Shown here piece by piece: positions 6,928-13,708 of a stretch of DNA of 20,071 bases (position 1 is its first letter; each line of letters starts with the position of its first letter). A program made the position numbers and the translations under genes. The stretch lies in contig JAFECV010000002.1 in NCBI GenBank assembly GCA_018241985.1, positions 1-20,071 on the forward strand, in the 5' to 3' direction. This DNA is from Pseudomonadota bacterium (GTDB lineage Bacteria; Pseudomonadota; Gammaproteobacteria; Burkholderiales; Burkholderiaceae_C). Under the pieces are notes generated by a model that worked only from the letters and a program-made list of their open reading frames with translations, was not told the DNA's origin and did not search any database.

Positions 6928-7983
6928 ATGCCCAACGCTGCCGCTTCCTCTGCCGGTTCCCCCGCCGCCGCCCCGCTGCTCATCACCGGCGGCGCCGGCT
7001 ACATCGGATCGCACACCGCAGTCGTGCTGATGCAGGCCGGCCGGCGCGTGGTGCTGCTGGACAACCTCTGCAACAGCAGCGAGCGAGTGCTGGAGCGCCT
7101 GCGCCGCCTCTGCGGCGATGCGTTCGACTTCGTGCAGGCCGACGTGCGCGACGGCGCGGCGCTCGACGCCGCGTTCGCGCGCTACCGGCCCGACGGCGCG
7201 ATCCACTTCGCCGCGCTGAAGGCGGTCGGCGAATCGGTCGCCGAGCCGCTGCGCTACTTCGAGAACAACATAGTCGGCATGGTGTCGCTGCTGCAGGCGA
7301 TGGAGCGGGCCGACGTGCGCCGGCTCGTGTTCAGCTCGTCGGCCACGGTGTACGGCGACCCGCAATCGGTGCCGATCCCCGAGACCGCGCCGCTTTCCGC
7401 GACCAACCCCTACGGCCGCACCAAGCTGGTCTGCGAAGACCTGCTGCGCGAACTGCAGCATTGCGATCCACGCTGGCAGGTCGCGATCCTGCGCTACTTC
7501 AACCCGGTCGGCGCGCACGAAAGCGGGCTGATCGGCGAGGCGCCGAGCGGTACGCCGAACAACCTGATGCCGTACCTGACCCAGGTCGCGGTCGGCGCGC
7601 GGCCGTACCTGAACATCTTCGGCGACGACTACCCGACTCCCGACGGCACCGGCGTGCGCGACTACATCCACGTGATGGACCTGGCGCGCGGGCACCTCGC
7701 GGCGCTGCACGCCATGGAGCGCGACCAGCGCTCGCTCACGGTGAACCTCGGCACCGGCCAGGGCGTGAGCGTGCGCGAACTCGTCGACACCTTCGCGCGC
7801 GTCACCGGCCGCGCGGTGCCGTACCGCATCGCGCCGCGCCGCGCCGGCGACGTCGCCGCCTGCTGGGCCGACCCGAGTCTGGCGCGCGAGCTGCTCGGCT
7901 GGCAGGCCGAACACGACCTCGCCCGCATGTGCGAGGACGCGTGGCGCTGGCAGGCGATGAATCCGGCCGGGTACGAGGGCTGA
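6928..7983 (+). CDS. galE: UDP-glucose 4-epimerase
   Basis: GalE interconverts UDP-glucose and UDP-galactose (some members also the N-acetyl forms) and supplies precursors for surface glycans. It is a cytosolic short-chain dehydrogenase with tightly bound NAD. In the 351 residues one sees the NAD-binding GGAGYIGSH at 21-29, the LDNLCNSS loop, FSSSATVYGDP with the catalytic Ser/Thr, and NPYGRTK with the Tyr-X3-Lys pair near residue 160. Then come RYFNPVGAHESGLIGE and GTGVRDYIHVMDLA. It is slightly longer than the 338-residue E. coli enzyme, mainly through a 16-residue Ala/Ser-rich N-terminus. Start ATG at 6928. Position between two PglL-type transferases suggests a role in making their donor glycan. 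A decayed copy of its last 90 bases lies at 9173-9260. Confidence 0.96.
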   Translation: MPNAAASSAGSPAAAPLLITGGAGYIGSHTAVVLMQAGRRVVLLDNLCNSSERVLERLRRLCGDAFDFVQADVRDGAALDAAFARYRPDGAIHFAALKAVGESVAEPLRYFENNIVGMVSLLQAMERADVRRLVFSSSATVYGDPQSVPIPETAPLSATNPYGRTKLVCEDLLRELQHCDPRWQVAILRYFNPVGAHESGLIGEAPSGTPNNLMPYLTQVAVGARPYLNIFGDDYPTPDGTGVRDYIHVMDLARGHLAALHAMERDQRSLTVNLGTGQGVSVRELVDTFARVTGRAVPYRIAPRRAGDVAACWADPSLARELLGWQAEHDLARMCEDAWRWQAMNPAGYEG

Positions 7984-8036
7984 GCTGCGATCCCTCCGAG
8001 GCCGCACTCGCATGAGCAAGGCATGCGGGTGGCCGA

Positions 8037-8310
8037 TTACACCTTGCTGAGCCGCTCCGCCATGCGCGTCTGCCAGCCGGGGCCTGTCGCCTTCCAGCGC
8101 TCGATCACATCGGCCGGCAGGCGCAGCGAAATCAGCTTGCGCGGATTCGGCGATACCGGCCTTCCGCCCCTATTCACCTGAGCGCGGGCCAGCATTTCGT
8201 CGGTCAGTTCCGGCAGTTCTTCGTACTCCTTGCGGCTGTACCGCATGCGCATCGGCGCGCGCAAGGTCAGACTTCAAGGAGCGGCGCGATGCAGGCTCGT
8301 TCACGATCAT
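8037..8310 (-). pseudogene. BrnA-type antitoxin gene broken by a one-base insertion
   Basis: The 3' portion (8037 to about 8229) encodes the typical BrnA ending: PELTDEMLARA, GRPVSPNPRKLISLRLPAD, WKATGPGWQTRM. The 5' portion is in another frame. From ATG 8308-8310, preceded by GAGG, one reads MIVNEPASRRSLKSDLARAD, a normal BrnA beginning. Removing one T from the TT at 8230-8231 joins the frames exactly at QPQEYEELPELTDEM and gives a 90-residue protein, so the lesion is a single inserted base. BrnA is the DNA-binding antitoxin of BrnTA modules, and BrnT (toxin) should lie directly upstream. Here only 40 bases separate it from the HigA-like gene and no BrnT is visible. An internal start could still make the C-terminal 75 residues. 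Confidence 0.8.
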
Positions 8311-8350
8311 TTGCTTTTTCCTCGTGCAATACCGCTGGCGTCTCACCGGC

Positions 8351-8656
8351 TCACCCATGCACTGCCGGCTGAACGTCGATCCGCAGACCCAGCGCATGCA
8401 GCACCTTCAGCACCGTCGCGAAACTGGGATTTCCCTGGCTGCTCAGCGCCTTGTACAAGCCTTCGCGGGTCAGACCCGATTCCCGGGCCACCTGCGACAT
8501 GCCGCGCGCCTTGGCCACGTCGCCCAGGGCCGCGGCGAGCAAAGCAGGGTCGCCCTCCTCGAGCACGGCGGTCAGGTATTCGGCGCACGCCTGCTCGTTC
8601 TGCAAATAGTCGGCAGCATCGAAAATTGGCAGGTCGGCGACCTTGACTTTGCTCAT
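8351..8656 (-). CDS. HI1420-family addiction-module antitoxin (HigA-like, HTH)
   Basis: The 101-residue protein has an N-terminal segment (DLPIFDAADYLQNEQACAEY) that would wrap the toxin, and a C-terminal Cro/XRE-like helix-turn-helix. The HTH runs from MSQVARESGLTREGLYKALS to NPSFATVLKVLHALGLRI. This pattern is characteristic of HI1420-type antidote proteins, which sit downstream of their toxin, as here. The ATG at 8656 is three bases after the toxin stop, with a strong SD (AAGGAG) formed by the last two toxin codons, so translation is coupled. It should neutralise the toxin and repress the operon. Confidence 0.92.
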   Translation of the reverse strand: MSKVKVADLPIFDAADYLQNEQACAEYLTAVLEEGDPALLAAALGDVAKARGMSQVARESGLTREGLYKALSSQGNPSFATVLKVLHALGLRIDVQPAVHG

Positions 8657-8659
8657 GGA

Positions 8660-8995
8660 TCACTCCTTCGTCTTGCCCTGCTCCGGCTCCAGGGTTGCGG
8701 CCAATCGGTGTGCGGCGGCTATGTCGGTCTGCTGGGTCGACTTGTCGCCGCCGCCCAGCATCACGATCACCACGGAACCACGCTGCACGTAGTACATGCG
8801 CCAGCCCGGCCCGAAGAACTCGCGCATCTCGTACACACCGTCGCCTACGGGCTTCACGTCTCCCAGGTTGCCGAGCGACGCCTTGCGAAGCCGAGCCACC
8901 AGGCGGCGCTGCGTCATGCCATCGCGCAGTCCGGACAGCCAAGCCTGGAATTGAGGCATCAGGCGGACGGTGTACACAGAGGGATTGTCAACCAT
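8660..8995 (-). CDS. HI1419-family addiction-module toxin (RelE/HigB-like)
   Basis: The 111-residue protein belongs to the RelE/ParE superfamily, in the HI1419-type branch (phage-derived Gp49/HigB-like). The core includes FQAWLSGLRDGMTQRRLVAR, SLGNLGDVKPVGDGVYEMRE, GPGWRMYYVQRGSVVIVMLG and GGDKSTQQTDI, all in family order. Related toxins cleave mRNA on the ribosome and stop growth; activity here is inferred from the family. Start ATG at 8995. It heads a toxin-first operon with the HTH antitoxin and then the broken brnA. The region upstream holds a hairpin-rich repeat (9060-9107) and the galE remnant. Confidence 0.92.
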   Translation of the reverse strand: MVDNPSVYTVRLMPQFQAWLSGLRDGMTQRRLVARLRKASLGNLGDVKPVGDGVYEMREFFGPGWRMYYVQRGSVVIVMLGGGDKSTQQTDIAAAHRLAATLEPEQGKTKE

Positions 8996-9059
8996 GGTTC
9001 ACAGGATGGCAAGTGCGGTCTTCGCCTTCTTCCGTGGGCGAATACTCAGGCAAAACAAC

Positions 9060-9107
9060 CGCAAGCCATTGTGCGGCGCTTGCGCCAAGCTATTTAAACA
9101 ATAGCAA
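9060..9107 (-). repeat. hairpin-rich repeat upstream of the HigB-like toxin, possible copy R4
   Basis: Three nested inverted repeats are visible: CGCAAGC 9060-9066 with GCTTGCG 9078-9084; GGCGC 9075-9079 with GCGCC 9082-9086; and GCTATT 9089-9094 with AATAGC 9100-9105. Read on the minus strand it begins TTGCTATT and continues ATAGCTTGGCGC, resembling the head of R1-R3 but diverging afterwards. It lies 65-110 bases before the toxin start, so it could also serve as operator or leader structure. Nothing else gene-like is seen in 8996-9172. Confidence 0.45.
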
Positions 9108-9172
9108 AACGGCGCTACCGCCCGCAACCCGACCGCCCTCTCTCAACGAAGTGCAAGCCGCAACAAAGCATC

Positions 9173-9260
9173 GAACTGCTCGGCTGGCAGGCCCAGCACG
9201 ACCTCGCCGCATGTGCGAGGACGTGTGACGCTGGCAGGCGATGGATCCTAAGGGGTATGC
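9173..9260 (+). pseudogene. decayed second copy of the galE 3' end
   Basis: The stretch aligns almost base for base with galE 7889-7978: GCTGCTCGGCTGGCAGGC becomes ACTGCTCGGCTGGCAGGC, followed by CACGACCTCGCC, GCATGTGCGAGGACG and GCTGGCAGGCGATG in both. One C is missing (GCCGC at 9206-9210 against GCCCGC), which shifts the frame. A TGG codon has become TGA at 9226-9228. Similarity ends abruptly at about 9172 on the left and fades near 9260 on the right. The last codons of the convergent PglL-type gene overlap it on the other strand. Confidence 0.9.
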
Positions 9261-11095
9261 GCCTTGACCGAAGGGGGTTGCTCCAGTTCTTGAGTTGGCT
9301 TCTGCTCGAGCACCTTCAGCAGCTTCACTGCCGACAGCACCGGCACCCCGGCCGCTCTCCAGCGCCACTTGGCGCGCGCGAGCGCACAGCTTTCTTCCGG
9401 CGTCATCAGGCAGATCCGGGCCAGCGCATCCTCCGCGACGCGGGGCTGCCCGTTCAGGCCCGCCGCCAGCGCATAGAGCAGCTCGTTCGCGTCCGACGGA
9501 TAGCGCTTGACCGCGCGCTGCATCTCAGCGAGTTGCTGCGGCGTCATGCCGGCGTGCGGCTTCACGCGCAGATTGGTCAGCAGTCCGCGCAACTGGGTCA
9601 GCATCACCAGGCCTGGCGCGCGACTGTTGCGCGACGGGCCGACATGCGCGATCTCGAAGCGGAAGCGCGTGAGATTGCGCTCGGCCAAGTTGTATTCGAC
9701 CGCGACCCAGCCGACCAGCACCGTCGCGAGGCCGAGTAGCGCAGCGCCGGCCCAGCGGCGCAAATGTCGCACTCGCAACATCCGACTCGCGCGGTCGATC
9801 GGCAACATCTGGTCCAGCGCACCCATCATCAGCCCAGCCGGCAACAGGAAGTAGGCGTATTGCTGCGGATACTCGAGCATCGCGTGCAGCCCGAGTGCGC
9901 CGATTGCGAGCAACAGCAGGCAGGCCTGCGGCGTCGCCACCCGCAGCGCCTTCGTGATAAACCAGGCCCCAAGCGCCAGCACCAGCAGCGTACCGAGCGG
10001 CACACCGTTTTGCACCAGTAGGTCCAGCACCAGGTTGTGCGCGCTCGAGAATACGTGGTGGAGCGGCGGATGCTGAAGCGCGAATGCATAGTGCGCATTA
10101 GCCTGCTGGTTCCAGCCCCAGCCGGCCCAGGGCCGCTGCGCAATCGCATCGATGAACATGCGCCATGCGGCTGGGCGCAACCCGGCCGACGCCAGGGTGT
10201 CGGTGCCGCGGCCGGCGCTGACCAGCAACGCATCGCTGATCGCGCCCCACGCCAGGTTCAGCACGATGAAGTAGACACCCAGCGCAATCAACGCCTTCGC
10301 CTGGCGCCGCGTTTCGAGCGGCCGGCGATAGATTAGCGCCGCCACGCCGAGCAGCGCGACTTCAAGCCAGCCTGTACGCGAGCGGGTCGCGGCAATGCCC
10401 ACCATGATGAACGCGGCGCCGGCCGCCGCGATCCAGCCGCGGCAGCGTCCGTTCACATGACCCCACCACAGCGCGATCAAGCCCCAGACCAGCAACGTCG
10501 CCAGATTGTTCGCTTGACCCAGGTTCCCACTCGGACGAAGGCCTTCCATGGGGAATTGCACGGTCAGTAGACCCAAGCCGGACAGGCGCAGCCATTGGTA
10601 TAGCGCAAGGCCGGTGGACAGCAGCGCGCCAGCGCCGATCGCAGCAAACAGTACGTTACCGAGCTGTCCTGGGCGTTGTTGCTCGAAGCGTGCGCCTACC
10701 AGCAGCGCAAGCGCGAAGCCGAATAGGTAGAGGCCACTGATCCACGCGTCGCCCGCGAACACAACGATGCCGGCCGCATGCTGCAGCGCCGGGATGAACG
10801 CAACACAGAACACGGCGACGGCACTCGTGTGTACTGGCACCGACTCGGCGCGGCGCAGCACGATCCAGAACGCCGCCGGCAGCAGTGCGAGCGTCATCAG
10901 CAGGTCCACGTGAAATGCGGGCCATGGGGCGAAATGGGTCGGTAACAGCCAAGCACCGGCGATCGCTACAACCCACAGCACCCACCAGGGCTCGAACGGA
11001 AGCGCGAAGTCCCGCGTCAGCAGCGAACTGCGCGCCGGCTGCGGCACCGCAACCCCCCTGCTGTCTGCATCGGTCATGGGGACGGCTTGTCGCAT
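9248..11095 (-). CDS. PglL-type pilin O-oligosaccharyltransferase
   Basis: The 615-residue polytopic membrane protein has about 11-12 hydrophobic segments over residues 20-450, then a soluble C-terminal tail of about 160 residues (Wzy_C_2-like). It has the PglL_A motif GNLGQANNLATLL (about residue 195), GWGWNQQANAHYAF, the loop SSAHNLVLDLLVQNGVP with the conserved His (about 355) and LHAMLEYPQQYAYFLLPAG. PglL enzymes attach lipid-linked oligosaccharides to Ser/Thr of pilins in the periplasm, and the pilin gene is directly upstream on the same strand. The GTG at 11146 lies inside the pilin terminator, so I choose the ATG at 11095 (MRQAVPMTDAD); the ATG at 11077 is also possible. The last codons overlap the galE remnant. 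Confidence 0.9.
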   Translation of the reverse strand: MRQAVPMTDADSRGVAVPQPARSSLLTRDFALPFEPWWVLWVVAIAGAWLLPTHFAPWPAFHVDLLMTLALLPAAFWIVLRRAESVPVHTSAVAVFCVAFIPALQHAAGIVVFAGDAWISGLYLFGFALALLVGARFEQQRPGQLGNVLFAAIGAGALLSTGLALYQWLRLSGLGLLTVQFPMEGLRPSGNLGQANNLATLLVWGLIALWWGHVNGRCRGWIAAAGAAFIMVGIAATRSRTGWLEVALLGVAALIYRRPLETRRQAKALIALGVYFIVLNLAWGAISDALLVSAGRGTDTLASAGLRPAAWRMFIDAIAQRPWAGWGWNQQANAHYAFALQHPPLHHVFSSAHNLVLDLLVQNGVPLGTLLVLALGAWFITKALRVATPQACLLLLAIGALGLHAMLEYPQQYAYFLLPAGLMMGALDQMLPIDRASRMLRVRHLRRWAGAALLGLATVLVGWVAVEYNLAERNLTRFRFEIAHVGPSRNSRAPGLVMLTQLRGLLTNLRVKPHAGMTPQQLAEMQRAVKRYPSDANELLYALAAGLNGQPRVAEDALARICLMTPEESCALARAKWRWRAAGVPVLSAVKLLKVLEQKPTQELEQPPSVKAHTP

Positions 11096-11132
11096 GAATC
11101 GCTCAATGGGGGTTGAGAAGGCGAGCACCAAG

Positions 11133-11155
11133 GAAAAAGGCCCCACTCGGGGGCC
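11133..11155 (-). terminator. rho-independent terminator of the pilin gene
   Basis: On the minus strand GGCCCC (11155-11150), a five-base loop, GGGGCC (11144-11139) and a run of five T (11138-11134) form a standard intrinsic terminator. It begins 55 bases after the pilin stop. It separates the highly expressed pilin from the PglL-type gene, which would then get only read-through or its own promoter. Confidence 0.85.
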
Positions 11156-12056: not shown

Positions 12057-12308
12057 ATGACCACATTGACCGTTACCGCACGGGGCCAGGTGACTTTTAG
12101 AAAAGATGTGCTGCAACACCTCGGCATCAAGCCTGGAGAGAGGATCGAGCTGGATTTGCTGCCCGATGGGCGGGGCGTTCTCAAAGCAGCCCGGCGAACC
12201 GGAACGATTGCCGGTTTTGTCGGATTGCTCGCAGGCCGGGCCAAGAAGGTCGCCAGCATTGAGGAAATCAACGCGGCGACCGCGCAAGGCTGGGCCGGCA
12301 GGGAATGA
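12057..12308 (+). CDS. AbrB/MazE-type antitoxin (VapB-like)
   Basis: The 83-residue protein has an N-terminal SpoVT/AbrB swapped-hairpin DNA-binding domain: LTVTARGQVTFRKDVLQHLG, then IKPGERIELDLLPDGRGVLKA. The C-terminal 35 residues (GTIAGFVGLLAGRAKKVASI onward) would bind the toxin. Its stop overlaps the start of the PIN-domain toxin gene (ATGA at 12305-12308), so translation is coupled. It should neutralise the toxin and autoregulate the operon. ATG at 12057 has GAGGA upstream. Confidence 0.93.
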   Translation: MTTLTVTARGQVTFRKDVLQHLGIKPGERIELDLLPDGRGVLKAARRTGTIAGFVGLLAGRAKKVASIEEINAATAQGWAGRE

Positions 12309-12727
12309 AGGTCGCCGTTGATACCAACGTACTTGTTTGTGCTGCCGTGCGTGACGACCCCATGCAGGCGGACATCGCCGCCAAGGTCTTGACCGATGCC
12401 GAATTGATCGCGGTCGCGCTTCCGTGCCTGTGCGAATTTGCATGGGTTCTGCTCAAGGTCTACGGCTTTCAACCCGCCGACGCTGCCGCCGCGATCCGCG
12501 CTCTGCTCGCCATCGCCAATGTGGAAATGAACAGGCCAGCGGTAGAAGCCGGCCTGTCGGTGCTCGAAGCCGGCGGGGATTTTGCCGATGGCGTCATTGC
12601 CTACGAGGGCAGCGGGCTTGGTGGGGAAACCTTCGTTTCCTTTGACAAAAAGGGCGGTGGCGCTTCTCACGGCGCAAGGGCACTCGGCGCGGCTTTTGTG
12701 AGACGAGGCATTGCACTTCCGGGTTGA
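12305..12727 (+). CDS. PIN-domain toxin (VapC-like)
   Basis: The 140-residue protein is a PIN-domain ribonuclease of the VapC type. The acidic active-site residues are in place: VDTNVLV near the N-terminus (Asp6), CEFAWVL (Glu around 45), GGDFADGVIAYEG (Asp around 100) and FVSFDKK (Asp around 117). VapC toxins cleave specific RNAs, often initiator tRNA or rRNA; the target here is unknown. The ending GASHGARALGAAFVRRGIAL is slightly unusual but the length is normal. It overlaps the antitoxin gene by four bases. Immediately after its stop comes the tail of a second VapC-type gene. Confidence 0.93.
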   Translation: MKVAVDTNVLVCAAVRDDPMQADIAAKVLTDAELIAVALPCLCEFAWVLLKVYGFQPADAAAAIRALLAIANVEMNRPAVEAGLSVLEAGGDFADGVIAYEGSGLGGETFVSFDKKGGGASHGARALGAAFVRRGIALPG

Positions 12728-12943
12728 GATCGCCCCAACTACTTTTTTGGGCGCTTGCTCCCGATCGGCGCACGGACAGCCGACCGCTGGGGCCGGCTGG
12801 CGGGCTCAAAGGGCCGGCCGCTCCCCGCCCTCGACGGGCTGCCGGCAGCCACCGCACTGCACCACGATCTGACGCTGGTGACCCGCAACACCAGGGATTT
12901 CGAAGGTCTGGGCGTTCGGCTGGTCAACCCGTGGGAGGGTTGA
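12728..12943 (+). pseudogene. 3' remnant of a second VapC/FitB-type PIN toxin gene
   Basis: The frame from 12728 to the TGA at 12941-12943 encodes about 70 residues matching only the C-terminal half of FitB-like VapC proteins: GRLLPIGARTADRWGRL, PLPALDGLPAATALHH, DLTLVTRNTRDFEGLG and VRLVNPW. The N-terminal half with the first active-site Asp and Glu is absent, and the frame is cut off by the stop of the upstream vapC-like gene region. There is no ATG start, so this is a truncated remnant and not a short gene. No antitoxin partner for it is visible. Confidence 0.85.
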
Positions 12944-13040
12944 TTTGCCAATCAGATGCGGCAGAGGCGAAGGCAGATCAATGGCATATCGCTATGAATT
13001 CAATAGTGCCCTGGCTAACCTTGTAGGCGCATGCTGCATG

Positions 13041-13061
13041 AGACCGTAACAGGTCTATATT
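13041..13061 (+). promoter_or_regulatory. operator/promoter candidate of the Phd/RelE pair
   Basis: AGACC 13041-13045 and GGTCT 13052-13056 form an inverted repeat that overlaps a TATATT (-10-like) at 13056-13061, about 30 bases before the antitoxin ATG. Such a repeat over the promoter is the usual binding site of a Phd-type autorepressor. No good -35 box is visible. Confidence 0.4.
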
Positions 13062-13091
13062 CGGTCCTATTTGGATCAAGGGAGCGAAGCC

Positions 13092-13367
13092 ATGCGCTAC
13101 TCATCTCAAGTCAAACCCATCAGCTACCTGAAGGCCAACGCTGCCGAGGTGCTGGCGCATCTCGCCGATCAGCGTGAGCCGCTGGTCATCACGCAGAACG
13201 GCGAAGCCCGCGCCGTGCTGCAAGACATTGCGTCCTTCGAGGAAACCCAGGAGACGCTGGCGCTGCTGAAGATTCTGGCGCTCGGCAACCAGGACGTGGA
13301 AGCGGTCCGGGTCAAGCCGGTGGCCGACGTGGTGGCGCGCCTGCGCGCCAAGCGGGCAGCGGCTTGA
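13092..13367 (+). CDS. Phd/YefM-family antitoxin
   Basis: The 91-residue protein has the Phd/YefM DNA-binding domain: VKPISYLKANAAEVLAHLAD, then REPLVITQNGEARAVLQDIASFEE. A C-terminal helical part (ETLALLKILALGNQDV onward) would mask the toxin. The start ATG at 13092 follows GGGAG by seven bases; an earlier frame start at 13071 has no such signal. The stop TGA shares its A with the ATG of the RelE/ParE-type toxin (TGATG). It likely represses its own promoter through the inverted repeat at 13041-13056. Confidence 0.93.
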   Translation: MRYSSQVKPISYLKANAAEVLAHLADQREPLVITQNGEARAVLQDIASFEETQETLALLKILALGNQDVEAVRVKPVADVVARLRAKRAAA

Positions 13368-13708
13368 TGGCAAGCCGGCCGAGACGCTACGAGGTACTGC
13401 TGACCCAGGGTGCGGAACAGGATCTTGAGGCCATCCACGACTACATCGCCGAGTTCGATTGCGTGGCCAACGCCGACCACGTTCTCGACCGGCTGATGGA
13501 AGTCGCGGACGGATTGGCCCGCTTCCCCGAGTCCGGCAGTTACCCGAAAGAGCTGCTGGCGCTCGGCATCAAGGCGTACCGTCAGACGGCGTTCAAGCCT
13601 TACCGGGTCATCTATCGCGTCGTGGGCAATCGAGTCGTCATCCACTTGATCGTCGATGGCCGTCTCGACATGCAGTCGGTGCTGGCGCGGCGGCTTCTCG
13701 GCGCCTGA
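13367..13708 (+). CDS. RelE/ParE-family toxin
   Basis: The 113-residue protein has the RelE/ParE fold pattern: YEVLLTQGAEQDLEAIHDYI, a helical segment ending LARFPESGSYPKELL, then QTAFKPYRVIYRVVGNRVVI, HLIVDGRLDMQSVLARRLL. The GIKAYRQTAF...YRVIYRV...RRLL pattern is typical of toxins paired with Phd/YefM antitoxins. Whether it acts on mRNA (RelE-like) or gyrase (ParE-like) cannot be settled from sequence. The ATG at 13367 overlaps the antitoxin stop by one base; a TTG one codon earlier is less likely. It converges on the GspE/PilB-type gene with 38 bp between stops and no obvious terminator. Confidence 0.92.
   Translation: MASRPRRYEVLLTQGAEQDLEAIHDYIAEFDCVANADHVLDRLMEVADGLARFPESGSYPKELLALGIKAYRQTAFKPYRVIYRVVGNRVVIHLIVDGRLDMQSVLARRLLGA

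Follow-up and report, generated by a model that had tools for sequence, protein, structure and literature searches.

How did a toxin-antitoxin (TA) block come to lie between an intact galE and a second copy of the 3' end of that same gene? The question is raised by the window, by which we mean the whole stretch of 20,071 nucleotides that was analyzed. Islands that an integrase drives to the 3' end of a gene keep the gene end, and a direct repeat flanks their insert. The initial annotation took the galE repeat for such a footprint, that of an element that integrates at a gene terminus and restores it, as site-specific integrases do. We are inclined, on balance, to a different process: the HI1419/HI1420 block would have entered just past the galE stop by an insertion with a long and variable target duplication, leaving the gene whole and a second 3' end beyond the block.

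The anatomy can be seen directly (Table 1). The galE 3' end recurs in the same orientation past the TA block, as had been noticed, and local alignment of 7887-7964 with 9172-9248 gave 71 identical columns out of 78, with 6 mismatches and one single-base gap; the similarity is strong to 9248 and weak onward to about 9260. The one deletion and the TGG-to-TGA change by which the second copy was said to have decayed are both present in the alignment, and the cargo is as had been described: by Pfam and open reading frames (ORFs), the minus strand holds an HI1419/HI1420-type pair along with a broken brnA. The upstream part of the BrnA-like ORF seems to carry on in another frame when the ORFs are read by eye, and no brnT was recognized adjoining it. 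When the galE tail was searched against its own assembly (about 90% complete, 820 contigs), it was found in two places only, the remnant with an E value of 5.1e-24. The PglL-type gene that converges on galE has its stop codon (9248-9250) within the remnant, a point that the initial annotation had missed. A tRNA scan and an Rfam scan of the window gave no match, the REP motif had 0 matches in the window, and no microhomology was seen by eye at the window junction.

Table 1 Features of the window and genes whose 3' ends are repeated around HI1420-family loci.
Feature	Position or locus	Strand	Basis or detail
galE, UDP-glucose 4-epimerase family, intact host gene	6928..7983	+	ORF; Pfam Epimerase; G001 orthologue 87% amino-acid identity
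galE 3' tail, intact repeat copy	7887..7964	+	local alignment
brnA-like antitoxin ORF, probably frameshifted	8037..8264	-	PF14384, 56.3 bits; frame break read by eye
HI1420-type antitoxin	8351..8656	-	PF21716, 115.5 bits
HI1419-type toxin, RelE/Gp49 family (predicted)	8660..8995	-	PF05973 (Gp49), 24.4 bits, cut-off 23.9
spacer upstream of toxin gene; meets the second galE tail at its right edge (junction)	8996..9171	.	GC 0.559 in 9021-9172
displaced, decayed galE 3' tail	9172..9260	+	alignment, assembly search, column comparison
PglL/Wzy-type ligase gene, pilin glycosylation inferred	9248..11146	-	ORF, Pfam
small ORF and PIN gene	window, 12057-13708 region		PIN just under Pfam cut-off
PIN-like fragment	window, 12755-12943
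ParE-family toxin with an ORF preceding it	window, 12057-13708 region
repeated galE tail	window
repeated galE tail	G004
repeated end of cation-ATPase (C-terminus)	L175
repeated end of GNAT gene	L190		45 bp, ends 60 nt before gene end
repeated end of FAD oxidoreductase gene	L200
repeated end of aldehyde dehydrogenase gene	L201
repeated end of NUDIX gene	L202		20 bp, 100% identical, stop codon included; copies 671 bp apart
repeated end of ABC permease gene	L214		116 bp, 98%

We compared the locus among seven genomes of the genus, our own included (G000 to G006), several of which are fragmented. The single-tail, empty galE/PglL-type junction that had been predicted for relatives was found in G002 and G003, where the convergent galE and pglL end no more than a few tens of bases apart or overlap, so that an uninterrupted single-copy target exists in siblings. 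Two full galE genes in tandem, the pattern that had been named as pointing to a degraded paralogue, are absent from the locus in the six congeners, the galE of G006 being split over two contigs. G006 carries an HI1419/HI1420 pair at the galE end, on the opposite strand and with a single galE tail, and G005 carries a YefM/YoeB-like pair (named by eye) and an HI1420 fragment there. At the galE end of G004 lies a different HI1419/HI1420 pair, then 564 bp of a second galE, and pglL is only a piece. In G001, galE lies directly beside pilB; pilA-pglL are found about 120 kb off, followed by brnA-like and HI1420-like pieces. Among the 19 HI1420-family matches in the seven genomes, four are at the galE end and two lie on either side of the relocated pilA-pglL in G001, one of the two scoring under the curated cut-off. 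The duplication starts at nucleotide 960 of the gene in the window and at nucleotide 472 in G004, giving 78-88 bp and 564 bp, respectively.

Past the moved pilA-pglL of G001 (locus L134, 10508-12551), copies of the brnA 3' end (148 bp, 80 bp and a weak one of 30 bp) separate TA genes. All three stop at the same brnA base, which makes brnA a second gene whose tail is repeated around TA modules. After the moved pglL there is also a galE-like sequence of ~40 bp, in frame; it was the best of nine tails, none of 300 shuffles reached its score, and equal lenient scores were obtained elsewhere in the same locus. G001 may keep about 40 bp of the galE end there, which is only suggestive.

The surroundings of pilA differ in other ways. 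In G004 (L036, 6626-7390), pglL is cut to a C-terminal piece and pilA is followed by a different protein of 254 aa without a Pfam match; the gene beside the pilin was apparently exchanged. In the window, the region between pilA and pilB (12057-13708) holds more TA-like genes, and the surroundings of pilA are TA-rich. A dispersed sequence of roughly 170 bp at 2502-2676 of the window is 85% similar to L134 5546-5713 and 80% similar to L134 1-118, and one of these L134 copies lies within about 2.5 kb of the moved pilA.

Where did the displaced tails come from? In the window, 5 of the 7 differences over the 78 aligned columns, including the deletion and the new stop codon, occur in the remnant alone. 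At column 10 the remnant has a base in common with its own galE alone, and at columns 18 and 63 it has bases in common with the galE of G000 and G001 alone. Its last bases are the GGGGTATG-type end found in the galE of G002-G006, from which the intact galE of G000 and G001 differ. Judged from these columns, duplication in place followed by decay would fit the window remnant at least as well as import does.

The longer tails of G004 carry more sites. In pilB, G004 has 30 derived sites in common with G002, 7 with G003 and 10 with the two together. The displaced part of its galE has 11 derived sites in common with G002, 4 with G003 and 2 with neither, and the same part of the intact galE has 11 in common with G003, 3 with G002 and 2 with neither; the contrast of the two tails gave a Fisher p of 0.009, each count alone being weak (p 0.06 and 0.12). 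The corresponding counts for G002, G003 and neither are 3, 2 and 6 in the 5' half of this galE and 6, 4 and 7 in wzyA, both of them undecided. Against a reading as import, the divergence between the galE genes of G002 and G003 is also higher in the 3' half. We also considered the synonymous and nonsynonymous counts between the two G004 tails (synonymous changes, 29 against 19) as a discriminator and set them aside, since much the same ratio is expected if a constrained and a free copy have diverged equally, and they cannot separate import from duplication in place. The simplest reading of G004 is one pointing to imported DNA that carried a galE 3' half and the TA pair and would have been joined to the resident gene. 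The displaced galE part starts directly past a REP-like sequence and the intact galE also has a REP-like sequence 3' of it, so that the TA pair of G004 lies between two direct REP copies.

The scar is not confined to galE. We looked at 47 HI1420-family loci, 19 of the genus and 28 from other genera of the family (those among the matches listed), of which L185 and L191 overlap, making the 47 partly non-independent. In the first pass, a direct repeat spanned the antitoxin gene in 4/19 genus loci and in 5/28 loci listed from other genera. Two of five loci cut by contig ends, L177 and L181, added repeats, for a total of 11 of the 47 loci listed. The repeat is part of the 3' end of the adjacent gene in 8 of the 47 (Table 1), a count that covers one TA family and rests on our reading of which repeats are gene tails, and the lengths are 20, 45, 78, 92, 116, 117, 157 and 565 alignment columns. 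In L190 and L200 the TA genes are codirectional with the host gene; in the other six of these eight they are convergent with it. L202 has a unit with hardly anything besides its two TA genes. Three candidates were rejected as gene tails: the repeat of L177 is a 56-bp intergenic sequence, that of L181 is a REP, and L195 has, by eye, a repeated transposase-like sequence and two toxin genes.

The 30 cold-shock control loci had no direct repeat, and neither did 24 galE loci taken from other genera, where one inverted repeat was found; any direct repeat at all was found in 9 of 373 random windows from other taxa, drawn more widely than the test loci. The first-pass tally, with L195 included, differs from the controls (9/47 against 0/54, Fisher p 6.5e-4), and so do the gene tails when set against any direct repeat in the windows from other taxa (8/47 against 9/373, p 1.5e-4).

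We then consider what could have carried the block. A search for tyrosine integrases (PF00589 only) gave no match on the galE contigs of the draft genomes, which are 8 to 245 kb long, and where a genome is a single contig (two cases), the nearest match lies about 27 kb from galE (G004). A larger element ending in the galE tail, for which the initial annotation had suggested a search, was found neither in the own assembly nor in viral contigs (0 matches to one degenerate pattern), and phage records gave two weak partial matches to the tail and nothing else. Against plasmids, the tail matched 12 records, 11 of them below 80% identity, and the annotated ones among the 10 matches listed are galE genes. 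The TA block matched 74 plasmid records, all at 60-80% identity and none covering 80% of the block, and no phage record.

A cassette mobilized by REP/RAYT was also considered for the window and rejected, for no REP flanks the cargo there, though REP copies do flank at galE in G004, G005 and G006. In these three species, the TA modules at the galE end differ and lie between direct REP-like pairs (L036 9353/10045, L037 4779/5387 and L039 384/1095). Of five further direct REP pairs picked among the matches listed, those in L169 and L171 have TA genes between them by ORF reading and those in L170, L172 and L173 do not. In L166, an inverted REP-like pair about 840 bp apart seems, by eye, to flank a Y1-type transposase gene. 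L161 (G012:C33:4500-13500) has six REP-like copies in the same orientation with TA genes between several of them (by Pfam, HI1419-like, PIN with a MazE-like antitoxin, ParD and PemK/MazF) and other genes too, such as a nucleotidyltransferase, and looks like a REP-punctuated TA array.

Under the insertion that we favor, the incoming DNA would most likely have had a galE 3' end with the TA pair behind it, and homology on the galE side would have let it pair with the resident gene. At the far end of this DNA, upstream of the toxin gene, the join would have formed without homology; alternatively, the DNA would have come in as a circle through one crossover. The end of the PglL-type gene is encoded in the resident tail too, and that tail would have remained with the PglL-type gene and decayed. 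Homology on one side with an illegitimate far end would explain both that the gene is kept whole and that the tail varies in length. Addiction by the TA pair, an established idea, would favor the survival of such rare events. All seven genus genomes have a match to the ComEC family (PF03772), which shows gene presence.

Several other explanations can be considered. The TA block might insert itself, duplicating a target of the same cell through repair of a staggered break, with no donor galE. This is possible, though we consider it doubtful. It accords with the window remnant, whose differences are mostly private and which has one base in common with its own galE alone, and it predicts near-identical copies such as those of L202 and L214, L202 being also the case in which the unit, with copies 671 bp apart, holds hardly more than the two TA genes. 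The differing affinity of the two G004 tails argues against it, and a staggered break would more usually leave duplications shorter than the 564 bp reached here. An unlikelier course is that DNA of another strain brought pilA, pglL and an overlapping galE end, the TA block having come separately. That pglL terminates inside the galE tail, that the gene following pilA differs in G004, and that in G001 pilA-pglL have moved about 120 kb off, with pieces resembling brnA and HI1420 behind them and possibly 40 bp of a galE end too, would all be consistent with such an exchange; it leaves the same scar at other genes unexplained, however, and the galE-like end in G001 is only suggestive.

The initial annotation was right that the cargo sits at the galE end, with galE intact and a second tail beyond it, and this anatomy, the direct repeat and the small cargo are also what a mini-element or a remnant minus its integrase would show at a galE 3' attachment site. 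Such site-specific integration is disfavored and, in our judgement, very improbable. A fixed attachment site is not supported because the start and length of the duplication vary, the same scar is found at several unrelated target genes, and the galE contigs show no tyrosine integrase, nor does longer sequence to a distance of about 27 kb; nor was a matching element found in viral contigs or, beyond the two weak partial matches, in phage records. Least credible of all is a tandem galE duplication whose second copy later decayed. The 564 bp of a second galE retained by G004 would suit it, but two congeners have the predicted empty site and a paralogue is therefore unlikely. Moreover, no relative with two full genes is seen among the seven genus genomes, and the displaced G004 copy is nearer to the galE of G002 (94.5%) and of G003 (92.3%) than to the intact galE of G004 (91.2%).

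Among known systems, the TA scar best matches, by analogy, the insertion with long and variable target duplication known for restriction-modification genes (Nobusato et al. 2000, as cited in passages of PMC1643837, PMC3031569 and PMC3874152), here with TA cargo. In those passages, as at galE, addiction-type genes are absent from a sibling genome and are flanked by direct target copies of the order of 100 bp and of variable length, with no transposase. Here the cargo is a TA pair and not a restriction-modification system, and the repeats are host-gene 3' ends at several unrelated targets in one bacterial family. The type VI secretion effector genes of Vibrio cholerae, according to the part of PMC5361080 consulted, undergo serial displacement, perhaps by homology-facilitated illegitimate recombination, and there too an incoming module is anchored by homology on one side and part of the resident gene is pushed downstream. 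That case concerns immunity genes and effector 3' ends of a polymorphic locus, whereas ours concerns the tail of a housekeeping gene beside a TA pair.

Places of TA insertion have been described in enterobacteria at folA-apaH and relA-mazG, with an integration route called unelucidated in the portion of PMC7167474 available to us. Different systems occupy the same intergenic place there and REP sequences occur, as at galE; that portion describes no duplicated gene tail, unlike the galE site. SGI1 sits near the 3' end of trmE (an excerpt of PMC6531882), and such integrase-driven islands are like the galE block in the kept gene end and the flanking direct repeat and unlike it in that here no integrase is seen, there is no constant core and several genes are targets. 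A literature search, mainly of open-access texts in excerpt, found no account of TA genes inserting with gene ends duplicated.

More doubtful still than self-insertion of the block, and offered as speculation, is a wider generalization in which HI1419/HI1420 pairs would themselves be mobile, taking up residence at the 3' ends of many different genes by a recurrent process in which 20-560 bp of the gene end is duplicated. The flanking repeats would allow exit as a circle and re-entry into the homologous gene of another cell, a TA cycle without an integrase that runs on borrowed host-gene tails.

For the insertion with target duplication that we favor, a recurrent and datable scar around one TA family, together with the empty sibling sites known for galE, makes the route of TA integration answerable by comparison of intact and displaced tails. 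TA pairs would take their place with restriction-modification genes among the addiction modules whose insertion duplicates a long stretch of the target, and a scar that recurs at other genes in related bacteria offers a way to study how selfish gene pairs settle in chromosomes.
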